The position numbers and the translations under genes are program-made. From Lachnospiraceae bacterium (GTDB taxonomy: Bacteria; Bacillota; Clostridia; Lachnospirales; Lachnospiraceae): a stretch of 64,000 nucleotides of DNA. Under the pieces are notes generated by a model that saw only the letters and a program-made list of their open reading frames with translations, made no database searches and was not told the origin of the DNA. The stretch lies in assembly GCA_017552985.1 (NCBI GenBank), contig JAFZNO010000093.1, positions 1 through 64,000 of the forward strand, given 5' to 3'. Shown here piece after piece: positions 23,819 to 32,702 of this stretch (the stretch's first letter is position 1; each line of letters begins with the position of its first letter).

Positions 23819-23851
23819 AAAAATGCCCGGGCTTTTTACTCCCGGGCATTT
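23819..23851 (-). terminator. Attenuator terminator in the metY leader (regions 3:4)
   Basis: AAATGCCCGGG (23841-23851) pairs perfectly with CCCGGGCATTT (23821-23831) over a 9-nt loop AGTAAAAAG, followed by a run of five T on the minus strand. It ends transcription ~130 nt before metY unless region 3 is captured by the upstream region 2. Confidence 0.9.
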
Positions 23852-23942
23852 GGCATTCTCTTCTGCTTAGCTTCTACATCGCAGTTCATCAAGGCGTGCT
23901 AACGGACAGCGCAGCGCCCCAGCCAAATTTAATGCCCGGGAG
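23839..23942 (-). promoter_or_regulatory. Antiterminator pairing in the metY leader (regions 2:3)
   Basis: CTCCCGGGCATT (region 2, 23931-23942, inside the leader ORF) is perfectly complementary to AATGCCCGGGAG (region 3, 23839-23850). This 12-bp helix uses the same bases as the terminator stem, so only one can form. Region 2 begins 14 nt after the last of three Cys codons, just beyond the footprint of a ribosome stalled there. Confidence 0.8.
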
Positions 23943-24004
23943 TTTCGCATTCGCAGACAACAACACATGCCGTTATTCTTTTTGAGATTCTGAATTGTAA
24001 GCAT
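23867..24004 (-). CDS. Cysteine-rich leader peptide of metY
   Basis: 45-residue upstream ORF with a strong AGGAGG eight nt before its ATG. It begins MLTIQNLKKNNGM, then three consecutive Cys codons (TGT TGT TGT, residues 14-16, at 23957-23965), then LRMRNSRALNLAG; two further Cys at 33 and 43. The stop TAA (23867-23869) lies 16 nt before region 3. Product is probably not functional in itself: translation speed through the Cys run is the signal. Low Cys-tRNA would stall the ribosome, leave region 2 free and let transcription reach metY. Confidence 0.8.
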   Translation of the reverse strand: MLTIQNLKKNNGMCCCLRMRNSRALNLAGALRCPLARLDELRCRS

Positions 24005-24118: not shown

Positions 24119-25303
24119 TTATTCCTGAAACCCTTTTTTCAGTCTGTCTAAAGCCTCCTTTAGCGTGCTTCTGCCCGTTGCAAGATTGATGCGTTCAAAG
24201 CCAGTTCCCGTCTTTCCAAAAATGTGGCCGTCATCCAGCCAAAGCTTCGCCTTCTTGAGGATTCGCTCCGACAATTCCTCACCGCAAAGTCCAAAAGCAC
24301 GGAAATCCAGCCATACAAGATACGTTCCCTCAGGTTCAACAACCTTTATCTCCGGGAGTTCCCTTTGCAGATACTCCTTCAGAAATTGGAGATTCTCCTG
24401 GATATACTTCCATGCGGCCCTGTACCATTCCTCACCATGCTGATAGGCAACCTTGCATGCCTCCACGCCAAAGGCATTGAGCTGACTGTAGCCTGCTGCC
24501 TGGATCTGCTTTCGTAGTGCCCTCCTGAGCTTTTGATCCGGCACGATGATGTTTGCGATCTGCAGTCCCGCAAGGTTGAAGGTCTTGCTGACGGAGGTGC
24601 AGGTGATGCAAAACTCCTTTGCCCGCTCGTCCGCATTCAGAAATGGCACGTGCTTGTGCCCCGGGTATATAAAATCCTCATGGATCTCGTCGCTCACAAC
24701 GATCACGCCATGCCGTACGCAGATCTCCGCAAGCCTTTGCAGCTCCTCCTTCGTCCATACCCTGCCGACGGGATTGTGCGGACTGCAAAGCATAAAGAGC
24801 TTCACGCGATATTCCTTGATCTTGTTTTCAAAATCTTCGAAATCAACGTGATAGATTCCATTCTCCGGCACAAGATCACTGCTGATCACCTTACGGCCAT
24901 TATCCTGCACAACCTCCGTCAGGGGATAATATACCGGCTGCTGGATCAGCACGTAATCCCCAGCCTCCGTATAGGCCTTCACCGCCATTGCCAAGGCAAA
25001 GACAACGCCCGGCGTCTTTAATACCCACTGGGGCTCCACGTCCAGATCGTGATGGGATTTCATCCAATCCCGCAGAGCTTCAAAGTAATCCTCCCGCGTT
25101 TCCGTGTAACCAAAGATCCCGTGTCTCGCCCGCTCCTCCAAGGCATCCAAGATGAAGCTGGAGGTCTTAAAGTCCATGTCAGCGACCCAAAGCGGAAGCA
25201 CGTCCGCAGGCTTCCCCCTGCGCACTGCAAAATCATATTTCAGGCTGTCCGTATTCCGGCGCTCCACCACTTCGTCAAAATTCAAATTTCTTTCCTGCTC
25301 CAT
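24119..25303 (-). CDS. PatB/MalY-type C-S lyase (cystathionine beta-lyase family)
   Basis: 394-residue fold-type I PLP enzyme of the MalY/PatB class, which cleaves the C-S bond of cystathionine, cysteine or related thioethers to pyruvate, ammonia and a thiol. PLP lysine Lys240 in TSVSKTFNLAGLQ; LPLWVADMDFKT and CSPHNPVGRVWTKEEL are class signatures. Start ATG at 25303 with AAGGTGG five nt before it; an in-frame GTG at 25312 lies inside that site. Last gene of the seven-gene cystine/cysteine operon. The exact substrate (cystathionine, cystine, S-alkylcysteine) cannot be told from sequence. Confidence 0.88.
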   Translation of the reverse strand: MEQERNLNFDEVVERRNTDSLKYDFAVRRGKPADVLPLWVADMDFKTSSFILDALEERARHGIFGYTETREDYFEALRDWMKSHHDLDVEPQWVLKTPGVVFALAMAVKAYTEAGDYVLIQQPVYYPLTEVVQDNGRKVISSDLVPENGIYHVDFEDFENKIKEYRVKLFMLCSPHNPVGRVWTKEELQRLAEICVRHGVIVVSDEIHEDFIYPGHKHVPFLNADERAKEFCITCTSVSKTFNLAGLQIANIIVPDQKLRRALRKQIQAAGYSQLNAFGVEACKVAYQHGEEWYRAAWKYIQENLQFLKEYLQRELPEIKVVEPEGTYLVWLDFRAFGLCGEELSERILKKAKLWLDDGHIFGKTGTGFERINLATGRSTLKEALDRLKKGFQE

Positions 25304-25407
25304 CTCGTCCACCTTCTTTCAAGTCGCCCTTGCGATTTCTTTGTTTCTTTCCTAATTCTCTTCCAAGCCTCTGGCTTGCCTCTTGATACCGCCTTATGAC
25401 TTAACCG

Positions 25408-27204
25408 TCATTTGTCAAAACTGTCAAATGCCTGCTCCAGATCCGCGATCAAATCCTTCGTATCCTCAATACCCGCAGATAATCTCAACACGCGCTCCGT
25501 GATGCCGTTGGCAAGTCTTACTTCCTCCGGCACGTCCGCATGTGTCTGCGTCGTCGGATAGGTGAGCAGCGTCTCCACGCCGCCTAAGCTCTCCGCAAAA
25601 GGAATCAGCTTTGTATTCTTCAATACGTGATGCGCCAGTTCCTTGCTCTCCAACTCAAAGGTCAGCATGGAACCAAATCCGCTGGCCTGCGACTTACAGA
25701 TCTCATGCGCTTCCGTCCCGGGAATTCCAGGGTAATAGACCTTCTTTACCTCAGGCCTCTGCAGAAGCCAGTTAGCGATTGCCTTTGCATTCGCCTGCGC
25801 TTTCTCCATGCGAAGCGGCAAGGTCTTGATGCCGCGCAGGATGAGCCAGCTGTCAAACGGCGCCAAACCCGATCCCACCGTTTTGATGAGGAATCTCATC
25901 CGCTCCGAGATCTCCTGCGATTTCGTTACGATAAAGCCTGCCAGGGTGTCATTATGTCCGCCAAGGAATTTCGTGCCGCTGTGGATCACGACGTCCGCTC
26001 CCAGTTCCAAAGGTTTCTGGAAATAGGGAGACAAGAAGGTATTGTCCACGATCAGCAGTAAGCCGTAACGCTTTGCGATCTCCGCTGCCTTCCTTACGTC
26101 CGTCACGTTCATCATGGGATTCGTCGGCGTTTCGATAAAGATGGCCTTCGTATTCTCCTTGACGAATGCCTCCAGATTCTCCTTGCTGCAATTTACGTGA
26201 GAGAAAGTGATCCCGTTCTTCACGCATACGTTGCGGAACAAGCGGATGCTGCCGCCATAAAGGTCTGCATCTGCAATGATATGGTCTCCAGGCTTAAAAA
26301 TCTCCATCAGCGCCGTGATGGCTGCCATGCCGGTGCTGAATGCCAGCGCGTCAATTCCGCCCTCCAAGGCTGCCACCACCTTTTCCACCTGCGCCCTGGT
26401 TGGATTCTGCAATCTACCGTAATCAAAGCCCGTGCTCTTGCCAACCTCAGGATGCTCAAAGGTAGCCGATTGATAAATGGGGAAGCTGATGGCACCAGTG
26501 ACGTCAGCCACGGGACGCTCCTTGTTTCCGTATACGCACTTCGTTGCGAAGCCAAAGCCCTTATCCGCGCCCGCAACGCTTCCGGTGCTCCCTGCCGCTT
26601 CCGCCGCGCTATTGACCGGCACACTTACCTTCGTCAAATCTTCCGCCGCGCTCCCGGCCTGCTCCCGTACTCTCTCTTCGCCAGCCTTAAGCGCCGCCTC
26701 ATCCAAGTACTTTTCCACGAGCACGCAAGTAAAGTTTGGATGAAATCCCGCCGGTCTGACGGGCTTTTCGCCCTCTTCCTTCTTCCGCGGCGCGTCATAG
26801 GCATGGGCGGAAACCTCTGGGTTATAAACGTAACCACACTTTTCGTAAAAGCCCTGCGCCCTGTCCTGGCTGGAAATAACAATGTGCGAAATGCCTTTCT
26901 CAGCGATCCACTGCTCTGCCGCCTCGATCATCACGCGGCCATAGCCACCCTTTTGCTTTTCGCGGACCGTGCAGACGCGTTCGATCTTCGCCACGTCCTT
27001 TTTGGGATAAGCGATGCGAAGTCCGGAAACGGGCTTATGATCCTCCACCACGAGAATTCCCTGAAAGTCTTCCGTTCCCTTATCACCGTTAAATTCCATT
27101 TCTACCGGAATTCCCTGCCCCACGCAAAATGCGTCCGTCCTGATATAATTATATGCATGCAACTGCCAAATTGGAGAATCTCCCGTCACTCTGTAAACTT
27201 CCAT
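25408..27204 (-). CDS. GNAT acetyltransferase fused to cystathionine synthase/lyase
   Basis: 598-residue two-domain protein. Residues 1-~165 form a GNAT N-acetyltransferase domain: acetyl-CoA loop VREKQKGGYGRVMIEAAE and C-terminal strand RAQGFYEKCGYVY. An Ala/Gly-rich linker (~170-215, NSAAEAAGSTGSVAGA) leads to a complete Cys/Met-metabolism PLP domain (~220-598) with Lys412 in HSGTKFLGGHND and the DYGRLQNPTRAQVEK substrate motif, matching cystathionine gamma-synthase/beta-lyase. One ORF without a frameshift, so a true fusion. The GNAT may acetylate an amino-acid thioether or homoserine-like substrate; this is inference. AAGGAG ribosome binding site. Confidence 0.88.
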   Translation of the reverse strand: MEVYRVTGDSPIWQLHAYNYIRTDAFCVGQGIPVEMEFNGDKGTEDFQGILVVEDHKPVSGLRIAYPKKDVAKIERVCTVREKQKGGYGRVMIEAAEQWIAEKGISHIVISSQDRAQGFYEKCGYVYNPEVSAHAYDAPRKKEEGEKPVRPAGFHPNFTCVLVEKYLDEAALKAGEERVREQAGSAAEDLTKVSVPVNSAAEAAGSTGSVAGADKGFGFATKCVYGNKERPVADVTGAISFPIYQSATFEHPEVGKSTGFDYGRLQNPTRAQVEKVVAALEGGIDALAFSTGMAAITALMEIFKPGDHIIADADLYGGSIRLFRNVCVKNGITFSHVNCSKENLEAFVKENTKAIFIETPTNPMMNVTDVRKAAEIAKRYGLLLIVDNTFLSPYFQKPLELGADVVIHSGTKFLGGHNDTLAGFIVTKSQEISERMRFLIKTVGSGLAPFDSWLILRGIKTLPLRMEKAQANAKAIANWLLQRPEVKKVYYPGIPGTEAHEICKSQASGFGSMLTFELESKELAHHVLKNTKLIPFAESLGGVETLLTYPTTQTHADVPEEVRLANGITERVLRLSAGIEDTKDLIADLEQAFDSFDK

Positions 27205-27277
27205 CTTACGTCTCCTTTACGTCATCTATCAGCTTGCGTTCTCCGCACGCCTCTTCAGCTTTATAATCCTTGCGTCA

Positions 27278-28426
27278 CTAAAGACTCGTCATCAATCTCA
27301 GCGTCAGTTCAGCGGATCTCGTAAGCTCCGCCGCCGTCGTATACTCATCCGTACCATGACTGTTCTCCATGGCATTTGCAATGACGATGGTATCCACTCC
27401 GCCTTCATTTAACCTGTTAGCATCGCTTCCTCCGTACGTCGTTATCGTCTCCGGATGCTCCAGCGTCGTCACCTCCTTTGCCGCCGCAAGAAAGCGTTTG
27501 ACGACGTTCTTTCTTTTCGAAATGCCGTAGGACCTTATGTGTTCCGTCAATCCAAACTCTATCGCTCCGCCGTATTTCTTGGCTGCCTTTTCAAAGATTT
27601 CCCTGATCAGGTCTGCCTCGCAGAGTGCTCTCTCATGCTCTAGGCATCGGATTTCCCCTTCGATCCAAATCTCTTCGGGAACAATGTTTCTTCCGCTTCC
27701 GCCGCTGATCGTTCCAAAGTTTACCGTGAGATTTTCATAGACCCGTCCGGTCCTGATATTGGCCAAGGCATCCGCTGCAATGCTAAGTGCATTAATACCC
27801 TTCTCTGGATTAAATCCCGCGTGCGCTGCCCTGCCCTTCACCCCAATCTTTAGGGAGAGGATGGAAGGTGCCGCCGTCGCTGCCGTCCCGACAGGCCCCG
27901 TCAAATCCAGCACGTAGCCTTCCTTTGCCTTAATTTTCTTGTAATCCAGGAACCTGCTGCCGCTGCAGTAGGGTTCCTCCGCCACCGTAAAAAGAATTTC
28001 CAGGTCGGGATGGGGAAGCTTCTTTTCCTTGATGACCGTCAGGGCTTCTATAATGGAGACCAGCCCGGAAACGTCATCCGCGCCGAGCACCGTATTCCCT
28101 GCGGAAGTGATCCTCCCGTCATCATGAAGGATCGCTTTCTTTCCAGTCCCTGGATTTACCGTATCCATATGGGAGGAGAAAAGGATCGGATCACCAGTTC
28201 CTTTTAAGTATGCATAGAGATTCGACGCAGTCTTGGTTCTGGACGCATCTTCTTCCAATAGCTTACGTTTTGCGTCATCTTCCTCCACGCTAAGCCCCAG
28301 GCTCTCCAGCTTTTCCTTCAGATAGTTTGCGATCTCTTCTTCCTGATAAGAAGGGGCGTCGAAGGAGGTCAGTTTGAAGAATTCCTCTAGGATCCGATCC
28401 TTGTTTACGCTTACTTTATTTGCCAT
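27278..28426 (-). CDS. M20-family metallopeptidase (PepT-like)
   Basis: 382-residue M20 zinc peptidase related to peptidase T. Metal and catalytic residues: SSHMDTV (His and Asp), LGADDVSG (bridging Asp) and VAEEPYCSG (catalytic Glu pair), then the dimerisation domain with GRAAHAGFNPEKGINA, and the C-terminal metal His in NAMENSHGTDEY. In the context of an amino-acid importer and PLP lyases it may release cysteine from small peptides or from N-acylated cysteine. GAGAGGAAG ribosome binding site; 33 nt after the ABC ATPase. Confidence 0.85.
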   Translation of the reverse strand: MANKVSVNKDRILEEFFKLTSFDAPSYQEEEIANYLKEKLESLGLSVEEDDAKRKLLEEDASRTKTASNLYAYLKGTGDPILFSSHMDTVNPGTGKKAILHDDGRITSAGNTVLGADDVSGLVSIIEALTVIKEKKLPHPDLEILFTVAEEPYCSGSRFLDYKKIKAKEGYVLDLTGPVGTAATAAPSILSLKIGVKGRAAHAGFNPEKGINALSIAADALANIRTGRVYENLTVNFGTISGGSGRNIVPEEIWIEGEIRCLEHERALCEADLIREIFEKAAKKYGGAIEFGLTEHIRSYGISKRKNVVKRFLAAAKEVTTLEHPETITTYGGSDANRLNEGGVDTIVIANAMENSHGTDEYTTAAELTRSAELTLRLMTSL

Positions 28427-28459: not shown

Positions 28460-29242
28460 TTAGATCACGTATTCCGGTTCCTCCAGAAGACTCATCTTCC
28501 TTAAGAAATCCCTTGTCCGCTCTTGTTTGGGAGCCGTAAACACTTCCTTGGGCGTGCCGTCCTCCACGATCTTTCCGTGGTCCAGGAAAATGCATCTGGT
28601 GGCAACCTTACGGATAAATGCCATCTCATGGGATACCAAGATCATGGTATGTCCCTCTTCTGCGAGTTGCTTGATCGTCTCCAGCACCTCACCCACAAGC
28701 TCTGGATCCAGCGCGGACGTTGGCTCATCCATCAAGATCAGGTCCGGCTTCATTGCCAGTACTCTGGCGATGGCAACGCGCTGCTGCTGACCGCCGGAAA
28801 GATGTTTGGGATAATGGTTGGCCCACTGCGTCATGCCCACTCTGTCCAGTTCCTTCAGCGCGATCTCTCTCGCCTCTTCCTTGCTCTTTTTCTGTACGGT
28901 GATCAGTCCTTCCATTACATTTTCCAGCGCCGTCTTCTTTTGAAACAGGTTAAATCTCTGGAAGACCATGCCGGTTCTCTGGCGAAGCTGCGTCACGTTC
29001 TTCAGGTTTGACTTCTTCGCATTAGACAGATCGATCTGACTCTCCCCGATCTCAATGGATCCGCTCTCCGGAACCTCCAGTTGGTTGATGCAGCGAAGAA
29101 GCGTAGATTTTCCGGTGCCAGACGGTCCGATCACGCCCAACACGTCGCCCTCGTTGATGGTAAGGTCAATGCCATCCAAAACAACGTTATTGTTGAATTT
29201 CTTTTTCAGATCCTTTATGACAAACCTCTGTTTTTCTGCCAT
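28460..29242 (-). CDS. Polar amino-acid ABC transporter, ATP-binding subunit (probable cystine importer)
   Basis: 260-residue ABC ATPase of the PAAT family (GlnQ/TcyC/TcyN type). Walker A GPSGTGKST at ~37-45, Q-loop, signature LSGGQQQR, Walker B LILMDEPTSALDPE, H-loop SHEMAF. Overlaps the permease gene by 28 nt with GGGAGGTG before the ATG. Substrate is inferred as cystine or cysteine from the neighbouring sulfur enzymes and the poly-Cys attenuator; related systems also carry other polar amino acids. Confidence 0.9.
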   Translation of the reverse strand: MAEKQRFVIKDLKKKFNNNVVLDGIDLTINEGDVLGVIGPSGTGKSTLLRCINQLEVPESGSIEIGESQIDLSNAKKSNLKNVTQLRQRTGMVFQRFNLFQKKTALENVMEGLITVQKKSKEEAREIALKELDRVGMTQWANHYPKHLSGGQQQRVAIARVLAMKPDLILMDEPTSALDPELVGEVLETIKQLAEEGHTMILVSHEMAFIRKVATRCIFLDHGKIVEDGTPKEVFTAPKQERTRDFLRKMSLLEEPEYVI

Positions 29243-30048
29243 GCCAATTCACCTCCCAGCCTCTTATGGTTTGCGGCATATGCCTTTGCCTTGGATTTGG
29301 GGCTCCTAAGGCTTTCCAACTCCTCCGGACTGATCTGTTCCACCTGCTCCGGAATGGAAATCTTCTTTTCCACAAATTTCAAAATCTTTTCGAATAGAAT
29401 CGTGATCGCCCAGTAAATGATCGCCAGGGATACGTAAACCTCAAAGTATCTGTAATTTCTGCCGGACAAAATCTTTCCTTCCGCCGTCATCTCCACCACC
29501 GCACAGGTGAATGCAAGTGACGTTCCCTTGATGGCGTTGATAAAGGAATTTCCAAGGGACGGAAGTGCCACGGAGAGTGCTTCCGGGATAATGATCCTTC
29601 GGAGGGACTGCCATCCCGTCATGCCAATGGCTGCCGCCGCCTCATGCTGTCCCTTGTCTACGGAGAGAAGCGCTGCCCGGAACACCTCCGCGTCAAAGGC
29701 TGACTGGTTAAAGCCAAGCGCCAAAACCGCATATACAAAGCCCGGGATCGCAGCCACCTTTAGGTCGCTCCCCGTCTGCTGGTTGATATACTTTAACAGC
29801 ATCGGCACGCCAAAGTAAGCAATGTATAACTGCACCAGCACGGGCGTGCCGCGCACCAGCGATACGTAAAAGGTTGCCAGCTTATCCAGCACCTTCACCT
29901 TCTTGATCTTGATGATGGCGATCAAAAGTCCCAAGAGCATTCCAAATACCGTGGAAGCGATCGCCAATTCCATGGTGATCGGGAGATATTTCAGCAGATC
30001 CGGGATCTGGGTGAATACTAACTTAAAATCGAATATTTTTCCTGTCAT
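29215..30048 (-). CDS. Polar amino-acid ABC transporter, permease subunit
   Basis: 277-residue HisMQ-type permease with about five membrane segments and the EAA motif EVFRAALLSVDKGQHEAAAA that docks the ATPase. LVRGTPVLVQLYIAYFG is a typical PAAT permease signature. The C-terminal ~35 residues (KFVEKKISIPEQVEQISPEE onward) form a hydrophilic tail beyond the usual end. GGAGGGAGTG ribosome binding site; overlaps the ATPase gene. Confidence 0.9.
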   Translation of the reverse strand: MTGKIFDFKLVFTQIPDLLKYLPITMELAIASTVFGMLLGLLIAIIKIKKVKVLDKLATFYVSLVRGTPVLVQLYIAYFGVPMLLKYINQQTGSDLKVAAIPGFVYAVLALGFNQSAFDAEVFRAALLSVDKGQHEAAAAIGMTGWQSLRRIIIPEALSVALPSLGNSFINAIKGTSLAFTCAVVEMTAEGKILSGRNYRYFEVYVSLAIIYWAITILFEKILKFVEKKISIPEQVEQISPEELESLRSPKSKAKAYAANHKRLGGELAWQKNRGLS

Positions 30049-30128: not shown

Positions 30129-31052
30129 TTAGTTGATGGTGCTTTCAAAATCCTCTGCCGCAGGAGTCGTGGTGTATCCAAAATACTGCTCAGACAGCTT
30201 CTCGAGGGTGCCGTCCTGATAGAGTTCCTTGATCGCCACGTTAATGTCATCGCGGAGCTTCTTGCCCTTCTCGTCCTTTGCGTAGAGATAGTAGGTGTTT
30301 ACGGTAGGCAGAATGTCTGCAAGTGCCTCTTCTTCAAGCGTTACCTTCTTGATTCCCTGGAACTGATACTCCTCAAAGTACGCAGAGATCATCGGACCGT
30401 CGTCGAGCGTAAAGTCTGCCGCGCCGTCTGCCACCTGCTGGTATCTAACGACAACGCCTGCATCGGAATAGATCAGCTTGATCTGCTCATCCGGATGCTC
30501 CTCATTCCACTGCTCGAGAGCCGCAGTATCGCCGCCGGATGCGCCAACGATCACGGAATATCCTCTTGCCGCCGCGTCATGCAGATCCTTTAAGGGCTCG
30601 TCATTCTCTCTCTGTACGAAAGCCTTGTCCGTGATCTTATAAGGATAGGAGAAGTAATAGGATTCGCCTCTCTGCTCGCGCCATACCCAGTTGCCTACGG
30701 TAACGTCATAGAGTCCGGAGAGAACGCCGGTAAGACCGTCCGTTGCGGAAACGTACTCTGCTTCATACTGAGGAAGTCTGTCGATCGCCTCCTTGAATAC
30801 GGCATAGTCGAAGCCATCCGGCGTGCCGTCCTCATTTACGTAAAGGTAGGGTGCGGGACCCTGGCTTACGTGAACCTTGATCTTAGTTACTTCTGCGTTG
30901 CCGGCGGCTTCACCTGCGGCCGAGCTCTCCGTCTTCTGCTCCGCCCCTGCCGCACTGGCCTTGGGGGCGGCATTGCCGCATCCCGCAAGGGTACCACTCA
31001 ATAAAGAAACACTAAATGCTGCTGCCAATATGCTCAAAATTTTCTTTTTCAT
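30129..31052 (-). CDS. Amino-acid ABC transporter substrate-binding lipoprotein
   Basis: 307-residue SBP_bac_3 lipoprotein. Signal peptide KKKILSILAAAFSVSLLSG with lipobox LAGC, then an Ala/Ser/Glu-rich linker, then a bilobal periplasmic-type domain (PYLYVNEDGTPDGFDYAVFK, VGASGGDTAALEQWNEEHPD, DGPMISAYF). Start ATG at 31052 is chosen because AGGAGG lies eight nt upstream; an in-frame ATG six nt earlier is too close to it. Ligand presumed cystine or cysteine from context. Confidence 0.88.
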   Translation of the reverse strand: MKKKILSILAAAFSVSLLSGTLAGCGNAAPKASAAGAEQKTESSAAGEAAGNAEVTKIKVHVSQGPAPYLYVNEDGTPDGFDYAVFKEAIDRLPQYEAEYVSATDGLTGVLSGLYDVTVGNWVWREQRGESYYFSYPYKITDKAFVQRENDEPLKDLHDAAARGYSVIVGASGGDTAALEQWNEEHPDEQIKLIYSDAGVVVRYQQVADGAADFTLDDGPMISAYFEEYQFQGIKKVTLEEEALADILPTVNTYYLYAKDEKGKKLRDDINVAIKELYQDGTLEKLSEQYFGYTTTPAAEDFESTIN

Positions 31053-31079
31053 AATCATTTCCTCCTATGATCGCTCGTC

Positions 31080-32312
31080 TTATTTGTTGCTCAAAAGTCC
31101 CTTTAAGGGATTTACGGTTACGTCAAAATCAGGTCTGTAATTAGTGGGCTCTCTGTCCTCCCAAGAAGGAGAATTCCAGATGGTCTTGGAAATCTCGGAC
31201 TGATAATCCTCAGGAGTCTCTCCTGCAGGATGCTTTAAGAACAGGTTCTCAGGATCTGCGGAAAGCTTTGCTCTCTCATGATCGGTCTTCCAAAGCTCCT
31301 CGAAGGGAATCAGGGGCACGATGCGCTCCTCATAACCCTTGAAGAATCCCTTGCCACCGCCAATGCCGCGGCCCTCGCGGAAGAAGGTATACTTTGCAAA
31401 CTGAGGGATGGAATAAAGCTCTCTGATATATCCCCAAATGTTCTTGTACTCCGTGATCCTCTTCTTCATGGGACCAATGGATCTAAAGTATCCGGTCTCC
31501 CATCTCACCAGGGATACGTAAGCCCGGATGTCAGAATCCGTTACGTAATCGCCGAAGATGAAACGATTGGTCTCCAGTCTCTTGTCCAGCTTCTCAAGGG
31601 AATCAAAGAAATCTTCGTAGCCCTCGTTGTATGCTTCCCATGACACACCAAACGCCATGCGGTAATGACCGTTATTGATATGAGGGAAGAGCCAGTCATT
31701 GAACTCATCGATCTCTTTTCTGTACTTCTTGGGATACAGGTCCGGTGCGTCCACTGGCTGGAACTTTCTGAACTGTACCTCAATGTAGTTGGATAATCTG
31801 TGGTAATCATTGTTGACTGCCTTCTTTTCAACAACGTCTACGAAAGTCGGCGTCGTTGCGCGTCCCTTGTAATCGGGATTTGCATTCTTATAAAATTCAG
31901 AGAGGAAGTGAACTCCCGTGATGGGATCCTTGTAATCCTTCTGGTCTGCGAAGCCATGACCATATTTGTTGGTCTCGCCGGAATGGCTCGTGGTCTGGTC
32001 TGCGATCACGTCCTGCAGTCCCAACAGATCTCTTGCGATCACGGGGCGGTTGGACCAGTTGCATCCGTGTGCCCAATAAATGGCGAAGCGATTTGCCTCT
32101 GCCTTGTGCTCGCCCTCCTTGTCACCGAAGGGAACGATGAAGGAGTTGGGCTGGCGTACGAAAACGCCTCTCTCATTGGTCTCATCCTTCTGCTCGTTCG
32201 GTCTGGGTGCCAGGCCTCCTGCCTCTGCCGCGAACTTCTCGGCAAGTTCATCCGTATAATCCGTTTTTACGTCCTGTGCTTTATGAAAACTTAAACTGCA
32301 ACTATTTCCCAT
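31080..32312 (-). CDS. Xi-class glutathione S-transferase-like reductase (glutathionyl-hydroquinone reductase family)
   Basis: 410-residue protein of the ECM4/YqjG family. The active-site segment reads HGCNWSNRPVIARDLLG, aligning the nucleophilic Cys with the CPWAHR motif of glutathionyl-hydroquinone reductases. TTPTFVDVVEKK and the C-terminal helical domain (FNDWLFPHINNGHYRMAFGV, EKLDKRLETNRFIFGDYVTD) follow. Such enzymes reductively remove glutathione or other thiols from conjugates. Most Clostridia make no glutathione, so the thiol here may be cysteine or another. ATG at 32312 has AAGGAG upstream; longer readings would extend through the attenuator terminator. First gene of the sulfur operon. 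Confidence 0.85.
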   Translation of the reverse strand: MGNSCSLSFHKAQDVKTDYTDELAEKFAAEAGGLAPRPNEQKDETNERGVFVRQPNSFIVPFGDKEGEHKAEANRFAIYWAHGCNWSNRPVIARDLLGLQDVIADQTTSHSGETNKYGHGFADQKDYKDPITGVHFLSEFYKNANPDYKGRATTPTFVDVVEKKAVNNDYHRLSNYIEVQFRKFQPVDAPDLYPKKYRKEIDEFNDWLFPHINNGHYRMAFGVSWEAYNEGYEDFFDSLEKLDKRLETNRFIFGDYVTDSDIRAYVSLVRWETGYFRSIGPMKKRITEYKNIWGYIRELYSIPQFAKYTFFREGRGIGGGKGFFKGYEERIVPLIPFEELWKTDHERAKLSADPENLFLKHPAGETPEDYQSEISKTIWNSPSWEDREPTNYRPDFDVTVNPLKGLLSNK

Positions 32313-32396
32313 GGTTTTGATCTCCTTTTCGATTTTGATTGTTATGTTAGAAAACATAAAACCGATTGCTTCGTGCTTCGCACTCTCGCATTTTGG

Positions 32397-32436
32397 CAAT
32401 AAAAATAGCAGCTCACGTTCCGTGAAACTGCCTGCT
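32397..32436 (-). terminator. Attenuator terminator ahead of the cystine operon
   Basis: On the minus strand GCAG-TT-TCACG, loop GAA, CGTGA-G-CTGC forms a bulged stem (TCACG/CGTGA plus GCAG/CTGC) followed by TATTTTTATT. It lies ~90 nt before the first gene and shares bases with the alternative helix at 32420-32461. Confidence 0.75.
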
Positions 32437-32461
32437 GATCGCATTGCTTATTGTTTCATGG
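32420..32461 (-). promoter_or_regulatory. Antiterminator pairing ahead of the cystine operon
   Basis: CCATGAAAC (32453-32461) can pair with GTTTCACGG (32420-32428), 8 of 9 positions. It removes the TCACG arm from the terminator. CCATGAAAC starts 5 nt after the stop codon of the poly-Cys leader ORF, so a ribosome that completes the ORF covers it, whereas one stalled in the Cys run leaves it free. Confidence 0.7.
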
Positions 32462-32466
32462 ATACT

Positions 32467-32520
32467 CTAAGTAAACTGTATGAACCTACGCATCATGCAG
32501 CAACAGCAACACATCATCAT
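32467..32520 (-). CDS. Poly-cysteine leader peptide of the cystine operon
   Basis: 17-residue ORF reading MMMCCCCCMMRRFIQFT: five consecutive Cys codons (TGT TGC TGT TGC TGC, 32497-32511). AAAGGAG lies six nt before the first ATG. The frame is open further upstream, with an in-frame ATG (MTRAELRVKENT...) that has its own AAAGGAG, so the peptide could be 29 residues or more; the Cys run and stop codon are the same. The stop TAG (32467-32469) lies directly before the antiterminator arm. As in trp/his-type leaders, supply of the charged tRNA, here Cys-tRNA, would decide between read-through and termination. Confidence 0.8.
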   Translation of the reverse strand: MMMCCCCCMMRRFIQFT

Positions 32521-32635
32521 CGTATTCTCCTTTACTCTTAATTCTGCTCTAGTCATCGCCATTGCTCCTTTCTCCATGTTCTCTTTCATGGCTTTCATTT
32601 ATTTCGTGCGACGTATCGTCGCTTGCGATGAATTG

Positions 32636-32663
32636 ATCATAATACTTTGCAAGCGAATTGTAA
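32636..32663 (-). promoter_or_regulatory. Promoter of the cystine operon
   Basis: TTTACA (32658-32663), 16-nt spacer, TATGAT (32636-32641) on the minus strand, giving a ~315-nt leader that contains the poly-Cys ORF and the attenuator. Confidence 0.6.
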
Positions 32664-32685
32664 ATTACGTGACTTCTATCGCTCG

Positions 32686-32702
32686 TGATAAACTATGGTT
32701 AT
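32686..32702. promoter_or_regulatory. Candidate LysR-type operator
   Basis: GATAAACTATGGTTATC: perfect arms GATAA/TTATC around 7 nt, the T-N11-A form bound by LysR regulators. It lies 23 nt upstream of the -35 box of the cystine operon and just downstream of the lysR gene, so activation of the operon by that LysR protein is plausible. Confidence 0.5.

Follow-up and report, generated by a model that had tools for sequence, protein, structure and literature searches.

A probable ribosome-mediated cysteine attenuator upstream of a cystine-uptake operon in a Lachnospiraceae bacterium, and its relation to other short Cys-codon leaders

The window analysed here, a stretch of 64,000 nucleotides from a Lachnospiraceae bacterium (GCA_017552985.1, contig JAFZNO010000093.1), carries on its minus strand a block of seven genes that presumably form one operon, judging from short gaps and a common strand. 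A LysR-type gene lies upstream, and inspection of the sequence confirmed a Cys-rich leader at 32397-32533, minus strand, with the operon block downstream of it. The genes of the block are as follows.

31080-32312, minus strand: first operon gene, GST-like (glutathionyl-hydroquinone-reductase-like), 410 aa; Pfam GST_C_2, 2.3e-06
30129-31058, minus strand: solute-binding protein, family 3, from domain-model searches
29215-30048, minus strand: ABC permease; best NCBIfam model a cystine permease, 178.4 bits, below the cut-off of 300
28460-29242, minus strand: ABC ATPase; best NCBIfam model cystine TcyN, 341.7 bits, below the cut-off of 406
24119-28426, minus strand: remaining presumed operon genes (short gaps, common strand), assigned by domain-model searches as the next three
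27278-28426, minus strand: M20 peptidase
25408-27204, minus strand: GNAT-cystathionine enzyme fusion
24119-25312, minus strand: PatB-type C-S lyase

The GST-like protein matched no NCBIfam family; its PDB relatives include 3m1g (E 1.1e-48) and yqjG, 3r3e (2.7e-36). In the fusion protein, a GNAT acetyltransferase domain is joined to the N-terminus of a cystathionine-type PLP enzyme. An earlier, sequence-only reading of this DNA had placed the leader at the head of a cystine uptake operon; cystine-type transporter genes are indeed present, but the first gene is GST-like. The codons of the leader match what the operon would supply, with five Cys codons ahead of a cystine-type ABC transporter, a C-S lyase and cystathionine-type enzymes. 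The leader region comprises the following elements, in the direction of transcription.

32750-32719, minus strand: terminator-like hairpin behind the LysR-type gene and ahead of the promoter-like site
32636-32664, minus strand: promoter-like site TTTACA-17-TATGAT, from a consensus scan
32565-32571, minus strand: AAAGGAG, ribosome-binding-site-like, recurring in 9 of 11 orthologous leaders
32467-32562, minus strand: probable full leader ORF, MAMTRAELRVKENTMMMCCCCCMMRRFIQFT plus stop, predicted from the sequence and orthologues
32520-32467, minus strand: 17-codon ORF, MMMCCCCCMMRRFIQFT plus stop, with its own AAAGGAG at 32533-32527
32497-32511, minus strand: five consecutive Cys codons, TGT TGC TGT TGC TGC
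32469-32467, minus strand: stop codon TAG of the leader ORF
32453-32477, minus strand: segment 1, antiterminator 5' arm, comprising AGTTTAC (last codons) and the post-stop CCATGAAAC (32461-32453), from folding and duplex prediction
32420-32428, minus strand: segment 2, GTTTCACGG, common to antiterminator and terminator, from sequence and folding
32408-32431, minus strand: intrinsic terminator stem-loop GCAGTTTCACG-GAA-CGTGAGCTGC with one bulge, from folding; co-varies in 12 leaders
32398-32407, minus strand: T-rich tract TATTTTTATT

The 17-residue ORF with five Cys codons described in the sequence-only reading is present. It is, to judge from its relatives, probably the tail of a 29-31-codon ORF, because 9 of the 11 orthologous leaders (not L073 and L080) and the related leader L113 have an AAAGGAG-type site farther upstream, followed by a start in the same frame that gives peptides of 27-31 residues. 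The 15-mer encoding the five cysteines occurs as one exact copy in the 3.86-Mb genome. The same reading had the stop codon abutting the antiterminator arm; the arm does lie just behind the stop, but 5 intervening nucleotides separate the two, the CCATGAAAC:GTTTCACGG pairing contains one A.C mismatch, and the arm extends into the ORF, the best alternative fold (the fifth) lengthening this pairing with AGTTTAC. Two blemishes of the terminator, its bulged stem and interrupted T tract, count against an attenuator. The 142-nt leader as a whole is unremarkable in stability (z -1.40; 22 of 200 shuffles as stable), and the 71-nt antiterminator segment is unusually stable (z -2.63; 2 of 200 shuffles). 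The consensus scan found one promoter-like site where 1.5 are expected in shuffles of the region; a similar TTTACA...TATGAT was seen by eye in L066. Between the terminator and the first gene stands another hairpin, GAGAGTGCGAAGCACGAAGCAATCGG (32387-32362, minus strand), of which the genome has a single copy when as many as 3 mismatches are allowed.

Does the leader recur before the same gene in other genomes? Contigs were scanned with an alignment of eight GST-like proteins and the best 80 of 245 relatives were taken, by title mostly Lachnospiraceae and other Clostridia, many from the rumen, with some Treponema and others. The 21 closest loci, whose GST-like proteins are 85-98% identical, served as the orthologue set, and their upstream regions were read by eye. 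The leader type of the cystine operon, referred to as type B, is found in 11 of these (L062-L066, L069, L070, L072, L073, L079 and L080). The leaders of L062-L065 are near-copies of the window leader, and several others are clearly different in sequence, with Cys clusters that read CCCCC, CCCMC, CCCLC, CCRMCC, CCRMC or CCLC across the 11 loci. Across the leader groups the peptides have the Cys/Met cluster in common and little else. One locus (L071) instead has a metY-type (type A) leader before the GST-like gene, one (L082) a different CCCC leader, and one (L081), by eye, a two-Cys remnant with a hairpin. The remaining seven (L067, L068 and L074-L078) have no leader in the upstream regions read, which counts against the attenuator reading; L067 and L068 appear by eye to be operon-internal. 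An additional type B member is L113 from Fusicatenibacter saccharivorans, the same leader as L003.

Among the best 80 loci (888,895 bases, both strands), 53 ORFs led by a ribosome-binding site contain a Cys cluster. All 27 that are accompanied by a terminator-like hairpin lie on the strand of the gene, against 14 of the 26 without a hairpin (12 opposite); some of the 27 resemble chance frames (L094, L109, the second in L115, and L118). An earlier search of the family had found the GST-like gene in 17 of 299 genomes (E up to 1e-30), and in an earlier set of 31 loci, many of them paralogues of 34-50% identity, a CCC ORF lay within 700 nt only in the window's own entry (two overlapping loci), L003, L004 and L006, with a type A-like leader recognized by eye in L005 and L013.

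To assess pairing in the type B leaders, 12 of them were placed in a plain MAFFT alignment; L063 was omitted as near-identical to L062. Standard pairs fill 85.8% of the 120 terminator cells, compared with 29-48% when the arms are slid, and none of 500 shuffles scored as high. Cells with double changes number 13 against 5.5 in shuffles (0 of 500 reaching 13). Five pairs have changed on both sides, a count that 47 of 500 shuffles reach and that weighs against the attenuator reading. In the window leader, the 20 nt that follow the stop codon are predicted to pair with the terminator 5' arm in a duplex of -10.7 kcal/mol (p 0.006, 2000 shuffles of these 20 nt), and p ranges from 0.005 to 0.42 in the other 11 leaders (2000 mononucleotide shuffles each). 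Taken alone, L065 (0.08), L069 (0.11), L070 (0.22) and L113 (0.42) are not significant, which also counts against; combined over 8 representatives of the 12, including the window, Fisher's p is 1.9e-5. The exclusive pairing of the arm with the terminator 5' arm, as originally proposed, thus held across the set as a whole.

In the folding calculations the ribosome was modelled as covering the RNA to 12 nt past the first base of the A-site codon. At equilibrium, a ribosome stalled on the fourth or fifth Cys codon of the window leader leaves the terminator at 0.20-0.24 and the antiterminator at 0.54-0.58; with the ribosome at the stop codon the terminator stands at 0.88, as it also does without a ribosome. 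Stalls on the first three Cys codons still favour the terminator (0.81-0.87 at equilibrium), which counts against the model. With all RNA made, the terminator dominates at equilibrium in every state in 6 of the 12 leaders (L066, L069, L070, L073, L079 and L080), whereas the terminator of L113, under the definition used, stays weak (0.01-0.11) whatever the state. Equilibrium folding alone is too blunt for this question, and capture of the terminator 5' arm was therefore modelled before the 3' arm is made. Under these conditions capture in the window leader is 0.73-0.75 at every stall, 0.20 with the ribosome at the stop codon and 0.14 without a ribosome. The proposed masking of the arm by a ribosome that has reached the stop codon is clear in the model for the window leader, and state-dependent capture extends to only 7 of the 12 (the window, L062, L064, L065, L066, L073 and L080, some with small drops), with none in L069, L070, L072, L079 and L113. 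As modelled, the mechanism is well supported for the window leader and less uniformly in its relatives; either the arm of the latter sits farther behind the stop codon, or the model is too simple.

That 11 of 21 orthologous loci keep the Cys cluster and the terminator while peptide and stems change, and that the stems co-vary, supports the attenuator reading. In conjunction with the folding results, we consider it highly likely that the cystine-operon leader is a ribosome-mediated (trp-type) transcription attenuator, very probably one that turns the operon on when sulfur amino acids become scarce. We infer promoter use, translation, termination in vivo and Cys-tRNA as the signal, and propose the following model. 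RNA polymerase would start upstream, and a ribosome would translate the short Cys/Met-rich leader ORF. With plentiful Cys-tRNA, the ribosome would reach the stop codon and cover the arm at and just behind it, so that the terminator at 32431-32408 could form and transcription would end near 32400. With scarce Cys-tRNA, the ribosome would stall on the Cys codons and leave the arm free to pair with the emerging 5' half of the terminator, allowing read-through into the GST-like, cystine-transport and cystathionine/C-S-lyase genes.

The window contains another leader of this general kind, upstream of metY.

23819-24004, minus strand: second Cys leader (type A), of metY; ORF 24004-23867, CCC-LRM-xx-SRA

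In the folding model it behaves as a clean three-segment attenuator: segment 1 lies inside the ORF and is paired with segment 2 as long as the ribosome occupies the Cys codons or is missing altogether, and once the ribosome has moved on, segment 2 joins segment 3 in the terminator. A type A alignment was built from 19 of 24 pattern rows, after the removal of L033, L034 and L065, in which a T run was not recognized, L049, which lacks a partner segment, and L087, whose tail is truncated. CGAATG and TCCCGG are present in 19 of 19 aligned leaders, the pattern not having demanded these exact codons, and the Arg codon is always CGA. The 15-pair antiterminator has 94.4% standard pairs, compared with 22-50% when slid; its covariation score is reached by 0 of 500 shuffles and its count of double-changed pairs by 87 of 500.

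Covariance models of type A (R1) and type B (R2) were then searched against genomes, with approximately 10 candidates scored per genome for R1. R1 detected the leader in 42 of 299 family genomes (E up to 0.01, own genome counted; 10 of the 42 had supplied 11 of the 19 seeds), in 10 of 291 class genomes and in 2 of 249 phylum genomes (E up to 0.001, own genome counted in each). A simple pattern recognized the motif in 37 of 44 R1 loci and missed 7. For 35 of the 37, the first long ORF behind the motif is MetY-like (19), a transporter gene of SBP3, NlpA or permease type (11), CysK (2, one of them partial), a cystathionine-type enzyme (2) or GST-like (1). The exceptions are L162, where a type A leader precedes a pyruvate-formate-lyase-like gene, and L217, a spurious match. 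Without the 9 seed loci, which had been found via the metY or GST-like gene, the count is 26 of 28, with MetY-like in 11.

Loci of the type A family, which stands before metY and other sulfur genes, include the window (23819-24004, minus strand), L142-L171, L210-L222 and L233. In L157 and L159 the gene behind the leader encodes a family-3 solute-binding protein that also carries a fused NlpA (MetQ-type) domain, as though cysteine and methionine uptake were combined in a single gene. In L213 the ORF ends just before segment 1 (CCRMR-stop), a geometry that resembles the cystine-operon leader.

The covariance search seeded by each leader, which the sequence-only reading had suggested, bears out its view that the two leaders are unrelated. 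With filters off and E values of up to 10 admitted, R1 did not match 32397-32533, and the metY leader scored no better than E 4.9 with R2. Because the models do not cross-match, the cystine-operon and metY leaders are unrelated at the covariance-model level. The type B leaders of L073 and L080 have the string TGTTGTCGAATG in common with type A.

With E values of up to 0.1 admitted, R2 matched 39 of the 299 genomes, strongly only in G000 and G118, both in the model by construction. The 28 other loci of the 30 were read by eye, and L184, L185, L187, L190, L194 and L200 were judged real Cys leaders; the genes behind all six were confirmed as sulfur genes. L183 has a Cys-rich ORF ahead of a gene without an NCBIfam match, and the remaining loci of the 28 were judged not to be Cys leaders. 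L184, L185 and L187 have short leader ORFs of MMMCC or MMMLCC type ahead of MetN-type ATPases. CCCCQTV..NTVYFSY-like peptides in L082, L115, L194 and L200 may represent a third leader type, which precedes cysK in L194 and L200 and the GST-like gene in L082.

What is the relevance of the methionine codons in these leaders? The ribosome may stall on Cys codons or on neighbouring Met codons, a dual sensing that would extend the attenuator reading rather than oppose it, and to which we give not quite an even chance. Of the non-Cys residues that follow the Cys run, Met accounts for 28 of 109 in 11 type B leaders (L062 and L063 omitted) and for 17 of 69 in 7 representatives. In 11 other leaders, which were chosen by eye after the fact, it makes up 21 of 179 residues; the figure for 13 genes from the window is 62 of 4545. 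Across 22 leaders, 49 ATG triplets are in frame and the two remaining frames have 6 and 7, and in 29 of 36 type A leaders the residue just ahead of the first Cys is Met. Cys-cluster ORFs without a terminator have Met at only 2 of 261 positions, a control that used 24 of 26 ORFs (two type A leaders dropped) and is weakened by the many near-identical antisense frames of one gene among them. Three leaders stand before MetN-type ATPases, and several type A leaders before NlpA/MetQ-type genes. A shortage of Met-tRNA would, however, hit initiation too, ATG repeats near the start may be alternative starts, and L113 has no Met behind its Cys run. The codon counts suggest a sensor that reads both sulfur amino acids, and we infer Met as the second signal; part of the Met excess could stem from spare start codons or from RNA constraints.

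It is very unlikely that the leader encodes a functional Cys-rich peptide, for instance one that binds metals or thiols, with the terminator merely its own. Such a peptide would explain why there is a proper ORF and a ribosome-binding-site-like sequence ahead of it, but not the variation between orthologue groups in length and in residues outside the Cys/Met cluster; the peptide has no NCBIfam match up to E 10, and the post-stop arm still pairs with the terminator.

Very unlikely, too, is control by a ligand- or tRNA-binding leader (a T-box or riboswitch) or by a general sensor of starvation or pausing instead of the decoding of Cys codons. The genome does contain 10 T-box matches (RF00230), 4 of them over the cut-off, but all 10 lie on other contigs, and no Rfam family, the T-box included, is over its cut-off in the window. 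In 11 further loci no Rfam family exceeded its cut-off except a tRNA. What the leaders have in common is the Cys cluster. The sole Rfam match within 32300-32700 at E up to 1 is a sub-threshold hit to the Clostridiales-1 RNA (RF01699), best conserved in the hairpin at 32387-32362 behind the terminator; at 24.6 bits against a gathering score of 48, membership was rejected, and the four Clostridiales-1 matches over the cut-off in the genome are all on other contigs.

The coincidence of an ordinary terminator with an accidental poly-Cys reading frame is extremely unlikely. Loose Cys ORFs are no rarity: a rule that asks for a ribosome-binding site, an ORF of up to 60 codons and 3 Cys in 5 codons picks out 5 in the window, and in 20 shuffles 1.55 on average and 6 at most. 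But the leader recurs before the same gene with changed sequence, its stems co-vary and Cys ORFs show strand bias. A run of five TGY codons, present once in the window, was seen in 0 of 60 dinucleotide shuffles. The looser Cys-ORF rule is not significant alone.

The attenuator reading of the cystine-operon leader may be part of a larger story, which possibly lies in the number of independent leader families and in the Met codons. We tentatively propose, with somewhat less than even confidence, that in many Clostridia several unrelated short-ORF families, the window and metY leaders among them, count Cys and Met codons, arose more than once and stand where T-boxes and S-boxes are expected. If true, a Cys (perhaps Met) sensor before cystine-uptake, metY, cysK, MetQ-type and cystathionine-enzyme genes would alter how the sulfur regulon is read in many gut and rumen bacteria. 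The leader families vary enough to ask how attenuators repeatedly arise and replace T-boxes, and they offer concrete sites for testing sulfur control.

Classical ribosome-mediated attenuators are the trp, his and ilv leaders of Proteobacteria. As in these, a short ORF carries codons of the regulated amino acid, antiterminator and terminator exclude one another, and the position of the ribosome would decide between them; unlike them, the leader described here uses Cys (and Met) codons, occurs in Clostridia and has most of its first arm behind the stop codon. In mycobacteria, polycysteine short ORFs are reportedly cysteine-responsive, going by the title of a 2020 study by Canestrari. In the accessible text of two other sources, mycobacterial short ORFs with runs of Cys codons lie upstream of sulfur operons and respond to cysteine (PMC9094748, PMC1262725), and no conserved terminator hairpin was detected in Mycobacterium (Seliverstov 2005, PMC1262725). 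As described there, the mycobacterial ORFs are leaderless, whereas here a ribosome-binding-site-like sequence precedes both candidate starts, the promoter-like site lies approximately 74 nt upstream, and an intrinsic terminator follows.

The uORFC-8-2 motif of Rhodobacterales has tandem Cys codons and a proposed attenuation with a terminator stem (Brewer 2021, PMC8632094); in the accessible part of that report it occurs only upstream of alphaproteobacterial cysS, and we liken it to the present leader by description, not by fold. Closer in phylogeny, a Cys-specific T-box of C. perfringens, as described in the available text, stops transcription of genes for cysteine synthesis and uptake prematurely when cysteine is in excess, and metK and metT are under S-box riboswitches (PMC2940859). 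This T-box does the same job and differs in reading uncharged tRNA directly, without translation. The replacement of a T-box by a classical leader peptide in Firmicutes has a parallel in hisS of bacilli, which in the accessible text has histidine leader peptides (Naville and Gautheret 2010, PMC2965389), the differences being the amino acid and the bacilli. Our literature search, with most subscription papers outside its reach, found no Cys attenuator in Clostridia. Within the literature thus covered, attenuation itself, Cys-codon leaders in mycobacteria and Rhodobacterales, and leader peptides replacing T-boxes are already known, and what is new here is a probable Cys attenuator in Clostridia.
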